NCBI RefSeq assembly: GCF_900683735.1
Contig: NZ_LR215979.1
Coordinates: forward strand, 2,356,001 to 2,420,000
DNA from: Fusobacterium ulcerans ATCC 49185
Lineage (GTDB): Bacteria > Fusobacteriota > Fusobacteriia > Fusobacteriales > Fusobacteriaceae
Direction of reading: 5' to 3'
Length of the DNA stretch: 64,000 bases
Positions 12,869 to 16,830 of this stretch are shown here, one piece after another. The notes under the pieces were generated by a model, which was given only the letters and a program-made list of their open reading frames with translations, was not told the origin of the DNA and ran no database searches. The translations under genes and the position numbers were made by a program. The first letter of the stretch is position 1. Each line of letters opens with the position of its first letter.

Positions 12869-13660
12869 TTATGCTGAAAAAAGCTCACTATCTTTTAATC
12901 CAGCTTCTTTTTTATTAAATATTCTCAATAGTTTTTCAGAAGTAAGATTTTTCTTCTCATCTCCTCTTACATCTATCAATATCTCTCCTTCATGAAGCAT
13001 AATAAGCCTATTTCCATAATTTATTGCATCCTGAAGATTATGAGTTATCATAAGTGTAGATATATTATTTTTTTCTACTATCTCTCTTGTCTTTTCCATT
13101 ATTATTTTAGAAGTTTTTGGATCAAGAGCTGCTGTATGTTCATCCAATAAAAGAACCTGAGGTTTATTTAAAGTAGCCATTATCAGTGCAAGACATTGTC
13201 TTTGCCCTCCAGATAAAGATCCAACCTCTGTATCCATTTGATCTTCTATCCCTAAATCAAGTTCTTTTAACAGTGATCTATAGTACTCTTTTCTCTTTTT
13301 ATTTAACCCCAATGTAAACCCAAATCTTTTTCCCTTGTTATCTGCCATTGAAAGATTTTCAAATACTGTCATTGAAGGAGCTGTTCCCATTGCTGGATTT
13401 TGATATACTTTTGATATAAAGCTTCCTCTTTTGTATCTTGGAAGACTTGTTATATCTCTTCCATCTATATCAATAGTTCCGCTATCAGGAACAATATTTC
13501 CAGTTATAGTATCTAAAAGAGTAGATTTTCCTGCTCCATTACTCCCTATTATAGAGATAAAATCTCCTTTTTCTACATGGAGGTCCAGACCTTTAAATAC
13601 TCTTTTTATACTTCCTAGTTCAGTCTGGAAACTTTTTTTCACATTATTTATATTAAGCAT
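12869..13660 (-). CDS. ABC transporter ATPase, TrpXYZ type
   Basis: ATPase of 263 residues: Walker A GSNGAGKSTLLD, Q-loop in KVYQNPAMG, signature GSLSGGQRQCLAL and Walker B VLLLDEHTAALD. The glutamate expected after the Walker B aspartate is present, and DEHTAALD rather than DEPTAALD is typical of the COG1101 group. It pairs with the permease upstream, whose last 8 nt it overlaps, implying coupled translation. It powers uptake of a small molecule, predicted to be tryptophan from the leader of the operon. No clear terminator was seen after it. Confidence 0.9.
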   Translation of the reverse strand: MLNINNVKKSFQTELGSIKRVFKGLDLHVEKGDFISIIGSNGAGKSTLLDTITGNIVPDSGTIDIDGRDITSLPRYKRGSFISKVYQNPAMGTAPSMTVFENLSMADNKGKRFGFTLGLNKKRKEYYRSLLKELDLGIEDQMDTEVGSLSGGQRQCLALIMATLNKPQVLLLDEHTAALDPKTSKIIMEKTREIVEKNNISTLMITHNLQDAINYGNRLIMLHEGEILIDVRGDEKKNLTSEKLLRIFNKKEAGLKDSELFSA

Positions 13661-14536: not shown

Positions 14537-15457
14537 TTAATATTGCTTAGCTCCTTCTAAAGCTTTTGATGAAAGATCTACATTATATTTTTCTGCTGCT
14601 TTTTTATTTATTATTAATTGAGTATCTTTTAAAGTTTCTATAGGAATAGTATTTGGTGCAGTTCCTTTTAAAACTCTTACAGCAACTTCTCCTGTTTGGT
14701 ATCCCAATTTTTCATAATCTATTGTTTCAGTAACTAAAGCTCCCTGTATAACTTGATCTTCAATACTTCCTATAACTGGTTTACCTGCTTTATTAGCTTT
14801 TTCTAACAGAAGCGGAGTTGATGCAACTACTAAGTTATCTGTTGGTGTATAAAGTACATCTACTTTTGGAAGAAGAGAATCTAATCCAATAGCCATATCA
14901 TTTATTGTTGTAATTCCTGTTTCTACAATTTCTAAACCTAATTTTGCTGCTTCTACTTTTGCCTGTGCTACTTGCACTTGTGAATTTTGTTCACTTGTAT
15001 TATAGATAATTCCTACTTTTTTAGCCTTTGGTAAAAGTTTTGTTATTATTTCAAGCTGTTTATATATTGGAGCTGCATCACTTGTTCCTGTGATATTCTC
15101 TCCAACTAATCCTGCACTTTCAGTATCTGTTACTGCTGTTATAAGAATAGGAATTTTTTTAGTTGCATTATATGCAGCCTGAGCACTTGGTGTAGATATT
15201 GCCAGAATGATATCTTTTTTATCCTGAACAAATGAATTTGCTATCATTTGAGCTGTTCCAAAATCTCCCTGTGCATTTTGATAATCTATTTTTGCATCAC
15301 CATAACCACCATCTTTAAGTGCTTTGATAAATCCTTCTCTAGCTGAGTCCAAAGCCTGATGTTCTATTATTTGAGTTATTCCTACTTTTATTTTCGCTGG
15401 TTCCTTTCCAAAAGCTACCATTGAAAGTCCCATTAACAACATAATTATTTTTTTCAT
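14537..15457 (-). CDS. periplasmic substrate-binding protein, TrpX type (second copy)
   Basis: Substrate-binding protein (ABC_sub_bind family) of 306 residues. A Sec signal peptide ends near MVAFG, with no lipobox cysteine, so the mature protein should be free in the periplasm. Characteristic stretches are KVGITQIIEHQALD, NAQGDFGTAQMIA, VGIIYNTSEQNS and LYTPTDNLVVAS. It is clearly paralogous to the protein encoded just upstream, which has a lipobox. The 166 nt between them hold a modest hairpin (15571-15593), so expression may differ. Tryptophan or a related aromatic compound is the predicted ligand, based on the operon leader. Confidence 0.9.
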   Translation of the reverse strand: MKKIIMLLMGLSMVAFGKEPAKIKVGITQIIEHQALDSAREGFIKALKDGGYGDAKIDYQNAQGDFGTAQMIANSFVQDKKDIILAISTPSAQAAYNATKKIPILITAVTDTESAGLVGENITGTSDAAPIYKQLEIITKLLPKAKKVGIIYNTSEQNSQVQVAQAKVEAAKLGLEIVETGITTINDMAIGLDSLLPKVDVLYTPTDNLVVASTPLLLEKANKAGKPVIGSIEDQVIQGALVTETIDYEKLGYQTGEVAVRVLKGTAPNTIPIETLKDTQLIINKKAAEKYNVDLSSKALEGAKQY

Positions 15458-15623: not shown

Positions 15624-16520
15624 CTATTCTCCCTTTATGCCAAATTTTTCTGCAACATCTTTATTTATGTGTATTTCTGACTTCTCTACAACTTCATATG
15701 GAATGTTTTCTATCTTTTCTCCATTTAAATATTTAGCTACCATTTCTCCTGTTTGATACCCTACCTGATAATCAGATATCCCATCTATTGCAAGTGCTCC
15801 TTGATCTGCAAAACTTTTTGTTGCTCCTATTATTGGCTTATTTGCTTTATTGCTTTTCTCTACAATAAGAGGATAAGTAGAAGCAACTGTATTATCTATT
15901 GAAGTATAAAGAACATCTATTGTTGGAAGAAGTGTATCTAATGCAGATGCCATTTCACTGATATTACTTATTCCTTTTACCTTTACTGTATAACCTTTTT
16001 CTTCTGCAACTTTAGTAAATTCCTCTGTCAGATAAAAAGAGTTCTGCTCACTTGTATTATATACAATTCCTATATTTTTAGCCTCTGGTAAAAGTTTTTC
16101 TATAAGTTCAACCTGTTTTTTAACTGGTGACTTATCACTTACTCCTGTTACATTTTTTCTAAGTATTCCAGCATTTTCTGGATTAACTACAGCAGAGAAA
16201 AATACAGGTTTATTTTTTACATTGTTTACAGCTGCCTGAGCACTTGGTGTAGATACAGCAATTATCACATCACTGATATTATTAAATTCCTGAGCTATCA
16301 CTTGTGCTGTTCCAAAATCTCCCTGTGCATTTTTATAATTAATATTTATTTTATTCTCATCATATCCTTTTTCTTTAAGAGCATCTATCACCCCTTTTCT
16401 TACATCATCTAATGAAGGATGTTCAACTATTTGAGTAATTCCTATTTCTATTTTTTTCTGCTTTTCTGTTCCACATGCTGTGCATAAAATAACTAAAAGT
16501 AAAATAAATAATTTTTTCAT
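15624..16520 (-). CDS. lipoprotein substrate-binding protein, TrpX type (first copy)
   Basis: Substrate-binding lipoprotein of 298 residues. The signal peptide ends in LCTAC, a good lipobox with Cys16 as the lipidated residue. The mature domain shares KIEIGITQIVEHPSLD, NAQGDFGTAQVIA, IGIVYNTSEQNS and VLYTSIDNTVAS with its downstream paralogue. It is the first structural gene after the Trp leader, with GGGAGG 6 nt before the ATG. In Streptococcus and other Firmicutes this family is predicted or shown to bind tryptophan (from memory of the TrpX literature); here the leader gives independent support. Confidence 0.92.
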   Translation of the reverse strand: MKKLFILLLVILCTACGTEKQKKIEIGITQIVEHPSLDDVRKGVIDALKEKGYDENKININYKNAQGDFGTAQVIAQEFNNISDVIIAVSTPSAQAAVNNVKNKPVFFSAVVNPENAGILRKNVTGVSDKSPVKKQVELIEKLLPEAKNIGIVYNTSEQNSFYLTEEFTKVAEEKGYTVKVKGISNISEMASALDTLLPTIDVLYTSIDNTVASTYPLIVEKSNKANKPIIGATKSFADQGALAIDGISDYQVGYQTGEMVAKYLNGEKIENIPYEVVEKSEIHINKDVAEKFGIKGE

Positions 16521-16544: not shown

Positions 16545-16578
16545 AAAATAAAAAGCCCTGTCAAAATCAGACAAGGCT
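16545..16578 (-). terminator. second attenuator terminator in the Trp leader
   Basis: Minus-strand AGCCTTGTC (16578-16570) pairs with GACAGGGCT (16562-16554) across a 7-nt loop with one G-U pair, followed by TTTTATTTTT. It lies 25 nt before the ATG of the first binding protein gene. Confidence 0.85.
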
Positions 16579-16602
16579 TACTAAACAAATATTTTTATAT
16601 AT

Positions 16603-16633
16603 AAAATAAAAAACCTGTTCACTTGGAACAGGC
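16603..16633 (-). terminator. first attenuator terminator in the Trp leader
   Basis: Minus-strand CCTGTTC (16632-16626), a CAAGT loop and GAACAGG (16620-16614) form a perfect stem followed by TTTTTTATTTT. The loop and 3' arm (16624-16616) can instead pair with 16683-16675, just after the leader stop codon. Confidence 0.88.
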
Positions 16634-16674
16634 TTAAATACATACTAAAAATAAATAAAAGTATCTATAATTTA

Positions 16675-16740
16675 AAATGAACATCTATGACAAAACCTGA
16701 TCCACCTGTCTAGTATTAAATTTGTGAAGTCTGTTTTGCC
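16675..16740 (-). promoter_or_regulatory. alternative RNA pairings of the Trp attenuator
   Basis: Hairpin 1:2: GGCAAAAC (16740-16733), which starts inside the third Trp codon, can pair with GTTTTGTC near the end of the leader frame (8 bp with one G-U). Antiterminator: TGTTCATTT (16683-16675), starting 1 nt after the leader stop, pairs over 9 bp with AAGTGAACA (16624-16616) and removes the 3' arm of the first terminator. A ribosome stalled at Trp codons would favour the antiterminator; a ribosome at the stop codon would cover it. Pairings were read by eye. Confidence 0.65.
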
Positions 16741-16765
16741 ACCACCAAGTAAATCTATTCATCAT
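16685..16765 (-). CDS. Trp-rich leader peptide
   Basis: A 26-codon reading frame beginning MMNRFTWWWQNRLHK and ending in a TAG stop. GGAGG lies 9 nt before the first ATG; the second codon is also ATG. Three consecutive TGG codons occupy 16747-16739, very unlikely by chance in such AT-rich DNA. It begins close to a near-consensus promoter and is followed by alternative RNA pairings and two terminators before an ABC transporter operon. The peptide itself probably has no function beyond ribosome positioning. It acts as the tryptophan sensor of a transcription attenuator: scarce Trp-tRNA stalls the ribosome and allows readthrough. Confidence 0.85.
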   Translation of the reverse strand: MMNRFTWWWQNRLHKFNTRQVDQVLS

Positions 16766-16801
16766 TTTTGTTCACCTCCATTTTTTATTTTCTTATAAAA
16801 G

Positions 16802-16830
16802 AGAATACACTATTTCTTTTAGAATGTCAA
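16802..16830 (-). promoter_or_regulatory. promoter of the Trp transporter operon
   Basis: Minus-strand TTGACA (16825-16830) and TATTCT (16802-16807) are spaced 17 bp, about 40 nt before the leader peptide start. It lies directly after the stop of the upstream gene. Confidence 0.82.

Follow-up and report, generated by a model that had tools for sequence, protein, structure and literature searches.

What controls an ABC transporter whose genes follow a 26-codon reading frame with three consecutive Trp codons, and which amino acid does this transporter carry? The locus lies on the minus strand of the window, i.e. the whole stretch of 64,000 nucleotides that was analysed, and all window coordinates given below refer to that strand. 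An earlier note, made from the sequence alone, had proposed attenuation by ribosome stalling in response to Trp. This is the best explanation of the locus, backed by conservation, by covariation in a partner-swap test and by co-transcriptional folds, and it is very probable that the leader is a classical peptide-leader transcription attenuator which senses charged tRNA-Trp and controls a TrpXYZ-type importer.

The leader and the transporter operon

The elements named in the earlier note (promoter, GGAGG, the 26-codon WWW frame, the pairing of GGCAAAAC with GTTTTGTC, TGTTCATTT and both terminators) are all found where it had placed them. A sigma-70-type promoter, TTGACA-17-TATTCT (16802..16830), scored 10 of 12 matches in the scan, and a TTGACA-type promoter also precedes the leaders of most relatives. 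It is followed by the leader Shine-Dalgarno (SD) region at 16769..16779, consisting of GGAGG (16779-16775) with UGAACA on its 3' side, and by the leader peptide ORF MMNRFTWWWQNRLHKFNTRQVDQVLS (16685..16765; ATG at 16765, TAG at 16685). The three Trp codons TGG TGG TGG occupy 16739..16747 and form the putative ribosome stall site; with Trp at 0.62% of codons in the window, the expectation of WWW in a 26-codon frame is approximately 6e-6. The leader is hence a short ORF with its own SD and a run of regulatory codons.

Several strands of this RNA have partners. Strand A (16778-16769) is the SD region and pairs with strand D (UGUUCAUUUU, 16674..16683), which lies directly 3' of the leader stop, TGTTCATTT beginning 1 nt past it, and sequesters the SD. 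Strand B (GUGGCAAAAC, 16733..16742) is region 1 of a 1:2 hairpin, and region 2 (UGGAUCAGGUUUUGUCAU, 16687..16704) serves twice: its 3' part (16696-16687) pairs with B if the ribosome is absent, and its 5' part (16704-16693) is the antiterminator strand. Two intrinsic terminators stand between the leader ORF and the first structural gene, terminator 1 (AAGCCTGTTCCAAGTGAACAGGTTT plus U tract, 16611..16635), whose 5' arm and loop (16635-16624) are the partner of the antiterminator strand, and terminator 2 (AAGCCTTGTCTGATTTTGACAGGGCTT plus U tract, 16553..16579). The leader region folds with z = -4.6 (0/200 shuffles as stable), and a scan of 4.7 kb found four terminators compared to 1.1 in shuffles, two of the four being the tandem pair in the leader. 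A promoter-like site, TTGACA-17-TATATT (11/12), overlaps terminator 2 at 16564-16536 and could start RNA beyond the attenuator; its TTGACA is missing at the equivalent place in G004.

The operon behind the leader encodes two PF04392 substrate-binding proteins, a permease and an ATPase, the composition of a TrpXYZ importer. Binding protein 1 is a TrpX-like lipoprotein (15624..16520, ATG at 16520) and is followed by binding protein 2 (14537..15457), the TrpY-like permease (PF02653, 13653..14501) and the TrpZ-like ABC ATPase (12869..13660). The NCBIfam TrpX equivalog NF041285 is the best family for both binding proteins, below its cut-off (265 bits vs 390). In the 166-nt gap between their genes (15623-15458) lies a hairpin, AAACCCTAGTAAAACAGGGGTTT, that lacks a long U tract and is possibly a processing or partial terminator site.

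The substrate can be approached through the binding pocket, since structures exist for family members that bind Tyr (CD0873), Phe (VC_1101) and Trp (SP1069), and in these a pocket Tyr blocks Trp while a Gln in its place (Gln-284 of SP1069) hydrogen-bonds the indole (PMC6816091). Binding protein 1 carries Asp at this gate and therefore has a Trp-permissive pocket; binding protein 2 carries Tyr and is closer to CD0873. Behind WW trpX leaders, every one of the 17 binding proteins examined has Asp, Glu or Gln at the gate, a few of the 17 sequences representing the same genome via two collections, and 86 of 87 comparison sequences have Tyr; the binding proteins are related, and these counts are not a set of independent events. 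The comparison set comprises 66 other relatives, all with Tyr, and 21 leaderless or second-copy proteins, 20 of them with Tyr, the sole exception belonging to the leader-bearing operon of G022. Tyr is likewise found in the G056 protein behind an unrelated second leader family (see below). The two relatives controlled by a T-box have Asn and Glu at the gate. Going by these residues, Trp is the predicted ligand of protein 1, and that of protein 2 is probably another aromatic amino acid of the Phe/Tyr type. By the rule of PMC6816091, the claim in the earlier note that Trp is the substrate thus gains independent support, and a likely substrate can be set for an importer from a family that transports Tyr and Phe as well, down to which of two neighbouring binding proteins would take Trp. 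Neither trpB (weak background matches only) nor trpE was found in the organism's own genome; uptake must therefore supply Trp, and the attenuator would control an importer, not a biosynthetic operon.

Conservation, pairings and the predicted switch

The cross-genome comparison that the earlier note had asked for was carried out by searching relatives for the binding protein and reading the DNA upstream. In 19 Fusobacteriaceae genomes of seven genera, the orthologous binding-protein gene has a leader with consecutive Trp codons in front of it, and the pairings carry compensatory changes. The run reads WWWQN in g1 (the genus of the window and of Fusobacterium-type genomes; 5 genomes), g14 (3), g7 (2) and g5 (1), WWWQS in g12 (1), WWCKN in g13 (6; the named Psychrilyobacter sp. 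L108 has this leader too) and AWWQD in g10 (1; found also in the named Ilyobacter MAG L114). Propionigenium maris DSM 9537 (L113) has the leader as well. Tandem U-tailed terminators follow in 13/13 leaders outside g13, and one clear terminator in g13. The sequence of the leader changes between genomes while its pairings persist. In all 11 WWWQN leaders the codons for these five residues are TGGTGGTGGCAAAAC, with zero synonymous change; AAC makes up only 15% of Asn codons, and the invariance of CAA AAC despite this points to selection on the RNA.

Among 79 named loci the leader was confined to Fusobacteriaceae, apart from one uncertain WRW frame in a Eubacteriales MAG (L117), where MKMTMMNWRWQMNELIKKADNMGQVRLFAV, equipped with GGAGG, lies about 268 nt upstream of a binding-protein gene whose product has Asp at the gate. 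Matches to TGGTGGYRNCARAAY across the order included leader ORFs adjoining binding-protein genes only before trpX, the rest appearing to be coding sequence or chance; a second match of the leader itself in the own genome sits within a sigma-54-type regulator gene and is a chance match. In G022 (C40:22204-23049) the first binding-protein copy behind the leader has an in-frame TAA and is followed by an intact second copy.

Three pairings were evaluated by exchanging the partners between nine representative leaders; the leaders are related, and the covariation counts are not fully independent. The leader SD with the strand at or after the stop (A:D) gave p=3.5e-4, the Trp-codon region with the ORF end (B:C) p=0.012, and the ORF end with the 5' arm and loop of terminator 1 (C:E) p=0.008. 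A:D is illustrated by GGUGAACA with UGUUCAUU here versus AUGCAGA with UCUGCAU in G063. B:C, the protector 1:2 hairpin, is the pairing of GGCAAAAC with GTTTTGTC, which comprises 10 bp once extended, and is compensated in length: CAAAAC/GUUUUG here, CAAAAAC/GUUUUUG in G023 (Psychrilyobacter-type leaders). C:E is the antiterminator, which the earlier note had missed. It joins the last part of the leader ORF (UGGAUCAGGUUU) to the terminator 1 5' arm (AAGCCUGUUCCA), in this leader as UGGA.UCAGGUUU with AAGCCUGUUCCA. The 9-bp pairing of TGTTCATTT with AAGTGAACA that had been noted instead does exist in this leader and in that of G003, with 8 bp in G002; it is lost in the other WWWQN leaders and is not the antiterminator; as a conserved pairing of strand D with the terminator 3' arm it was rejected, being absent outside close relatives. 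Judged by the compensatory changes, the conserved partner of TGTTCATTT is the leader's own SD.

RNA folding, which had also been called for, gave two answers. The equilibrium fold of the complete leader showed no switch in three ribosome states, terminator 1 forming with P 0.92 even with the ribosome on the Trp codons; the switch must therefore be kinetic. Because attenuation is decided during transcription, the RNA was also folded as made up to the loop of terminator 1, and these co-transcriptional folds do show the switch. For this locus, leader sequence holds the terminator 1 5' arm with a probability of 0 when the RNA is free, 1.0 with a ribosome stalled on the second Trp codon (W2) and 0.06 with a ribosome at the stop, a switch value that 0/200 shuffles equalled. 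When the SD was treated as occupied by a following ribosome, the 13 leaders tested gave P = 0.88-1.0 in the stalled state, and 1-21 of 200 shuffles reached the real switch value; without SD occupancy the switch is weak in G024, G065, G015, G020 and G022. When the ribosome was moved codon by codon, the antiterminator formed from the point at which the Trp codons enter the A site and was lost once region 2 was covered. The folds, the shuffles and the partner-swap test together point to an antiterminator which is mutually exclusive with the terminator and arises only while a ribosome sits on the Trp codons. What the compared sequences themselves show are the elements and how they are conserved, the compensatory changes, and this position-dependent switch in silico.

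At the second terminator the calculations vary between leaders. With the ribosome stalled, region 2 is one possible partner of its 5' arm. The other is the freed 3' arm of terminator 1, a pairing whose probability in that state is about 1 in G001, G004, g14, g7 and g10, 0.67 here, and near 0 in G015 and G022. A CCUGU-like core is common to terminators 1 and 2 in many or most relatives. The pairing between the two terminators' arms gave no covariation (p=0.73).

Proposed mechanism and alternatives

For the living cell we infer stalling, read-through and a response to Trp along the following lines. RNA polymerase would transcribe the leader ORF with a ribosome behind it. If Trp-tRNA is sufficient, the ribosome would reach the stop and cover region 2, so that terminator 1 forms, with terminator 2 as a backup, and the transporter genes stay off. 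If Trp-tRNA is scarce, the ribosome would stall on UGG UGG UGG and cover strand B; region 2 would then capture terminator 1 at its 5' arm and loop while the 3' arm is yet to be made, and transcription would proceed. The pairing of UGGAUCAGG with CCUGUUCCA would be part of this read-through step. If the leader is not translated, B:C and SD:D would form and lock region 2, making termination the default. The least certain step is the passage of terminator 2, whose 5' arm may be bound by region 2. In most relatives it may instead be bound by the 3' arm that terminator 1 has released, a hypothetical cascade in which the first terminator would disarm the second.

A different use of the same codons would be a TnaC-type leader, in which the nascent peptide arrests the ribosome at high free Trp and thereby induces the transporter for Trp catabolism. 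Enzymes of the tryptophanase/tyrosine-phenol-lyase family are encoded in G000-G003, the own genome among them, and make uptake for catabolism possible. TnaC has one key Trp and a Pro at its C-terminus, and termination there depends on Rho, whereas the leader considered here has a run of UGG codons, no Pro, mutually exclusive 1:2, 2:3 and terminator pairings, and intrinsic terminators. Furthermore, its C-terminus varies between genera and follows the RNA pairing, not fixed residues, and leader-bearing genera include trpB-positive ones without a match to the tryptophanase model (G017, G020, G023 and G024). We regard a TnaC-type mechanism as very unlikely. TnaC-like 'KLxWFN' frames upstream of Leptotrichiaceae binding proteins were considered and dropped, as no such frame with an ATG, GTG or TTG start was found there.

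The chances are equally slim that the frame encodes a small functional protein, or a leader peptide or sRNA acting in trans, as is reported of the rhizobial peTrpL, with attenuation being secondary. In favour of this, the peptide is conserved in its N-terminal half (RFTWWWQN), termination in the leader would yield short RNAs, and peTrpL is a precedent (PMC7298713). Conservation tracks the pairing strands, however: CAAAAC shows no synonymous change, and g13 has Cys-Lys in place of Trp-Gln with the pairing kept. An additional role in trans beside attenuation may be compatible with this pattern.

Control by a T-box, as in streptococcal trpXYZ, or by another known riboswitch would fit the kind of target: trpXYZ of S. 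suis is T-box controlled (PMC9382623), and in L112 and L120, the closest relatives that are not fusobacterial, a T-box lies immediately upstream. Yet no Rfam family reached its gathering score in the window, and T-box matches were absent from the own genome and from the relatives' trpX loci scanned, which refutes this reading at the sensitivity of the Rfam models used and leaves it a negligible probability. Chance, i.e. a random short ORF combined with unrelated terminators of the upstream gene, has a comparably negligible claim: short ORFs are common and the same-strand gene at 17279-16839 may need a terminator, but conservation across seven genera, the compensatory changes and the 6e-6 expectation of WWW refute it.

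Other Trp leaders and comparison with known systems

WW leaders with terminators also stand before trpE elsewhere in the Fusobacteriales, e.g. MIRFTWWWKNSISDQSNKLSGFAALS in G024 and MEARFTWWQSEWYTRETKYVNQVLSVCL in G020, and short WW or WxWW frames with terminators precede the trp operons at loci L194-L200, L202 and L204-L210, Leptotrichiaceae included; T-boxes were not found at the subset of Fusobacteriales trpE loci scanned. The G020 trpE leader and the G004 trpX leader have 17 identical region 2 bases in common, and the G023 trpE leader shares stretches of 21-25 bases around the Trp codons with Fusobacterium trpX leaders. Because of these identical stretches the trpE and trpX leaders are probably related. 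A second family of leaders in Fusobacterium, GGAGGTTATCAA-ATG...YWW(W), is unrelated in sequence. It precedes an NSS symporter in G005, G006 and G008-G011 and an oligopeptide-type binding protein (PF00496) in G000-G003, including a second WWW leader in the own genome (MILSNLNTVFQYWWWSCTEKLYTEIFNVRYKLTSFDNFYTSV, G000 C1:442548-442605, minus strand, locus L252), and a related form stands before the PF04392 binding protein of G056. In this family the SD is sequestered over 10-14 bp, and several examples capture the 5' arm of the terminator in a ribosome-dependent way.

Putative tryptophan control of this kind is family-wide and probably order-wide. A bolder generalisation, which we put forward tentatively and hold to be somewhat less likely true than false, is a Trp regulon across the entire phylum Fusobacteriota that relies on ribosome-stalling leaders instead of T-boxes. 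Its two families (WWWQN before trpXYZ, with its trpE relatives, and YWW(W) before the NSS symporter and peptide-binding protein) would share one three-helix logic of SD lock, Trp-codon protector and antiterminator, and the tandem CCUGUU-core terminators of trpXYZ and several trpE leaders would be disarmed in sequence, the 3' arm of terminator 1 disarming terminator 2. The leaders before trpE, the symporter and the peptide-binding protein are pointed to as further cases.

The suggestion in the earlier note that this attenuator may be undescribed fits the literature searched: no description of a fusobacterial Trp leader was found in open-access papers. The search covered these papers, and novelty is claimed provisionally on that footing. 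Wels et al. listed no T-boxes in the Fusobacteria and Thermotogae genomes then available (PMC2494555). Classical attenuation by tRNA charging would hereby be placed in a phylum where no description of it was found, and the phylum, the target and the tandem terminators are apparently all new for peptide-leader attenuation.

The closest known system is trpL of E. coli and other enterobacteria, which likewise has a run of Trp codons in a short ORF, a 1:2 protector, a 2:3 antiterminator and a 3:4 intrinsic terminator, and which is likewise switched by where the ribosome stands. In trpL, too, a distal strand has been reported to sequester the leader SD. The fusobacterial leader differs in its target, an importer and not a biosynthetic operon, in its tandem terminators and in its phylum, and covariance models gave no match on the leader strand for either the trpL RNA (RF00513, Trp_leader) or Bacteroid-trp (RF01692), the latter matching below threshold on the opposite strand. 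The trp attenuators of Corynebacterium and Streptomyces (PMC1262725) and the Bacteroid-trp RNA resemble it in having double or triple UGG leaders with terminator and antiterminator in a non-proteobacterial phylum; they precede trp biosynthesis genes or trpS, however, and differ in sequence and phylum. Histidine leaders in bacilli are a further example of peptide leaders outside the Proteobacteria (PMC2965389). Trp codons also sense Trp starvation at trpRBA of Chlamydia trachomatis, but there the attenuator is reported to be the repressor protein YtgR and not a dedicated leader peptide before a transporter (PMC7755916).

A further counterpart is the T-box of streptococcal trpXYZ (PMC9382623) and of L112 and L120, the nearest binding-protein relatives outside the family, in which UGG was read by eye at the expected specifier position. 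After the T-box terminator of L112, at about 2220-2245, an SD-preceded short frame, ATGTCTATGACATTTACTTGA, is similar to how the fusobacterial leader begins (MT.FTW), possibly by chance. The T-box and the fusobacterial leader have in common the kind of target, the charging of tRNA-Trp as the signal and transcription antitermination as the outcome. In the T-box an RNA structure reads the tRNA, whereas the fusobacterial leader would use a ribosome on codons and stands in the T-box's place, a clear case of one regulatory device filling the role of another on the same gene.
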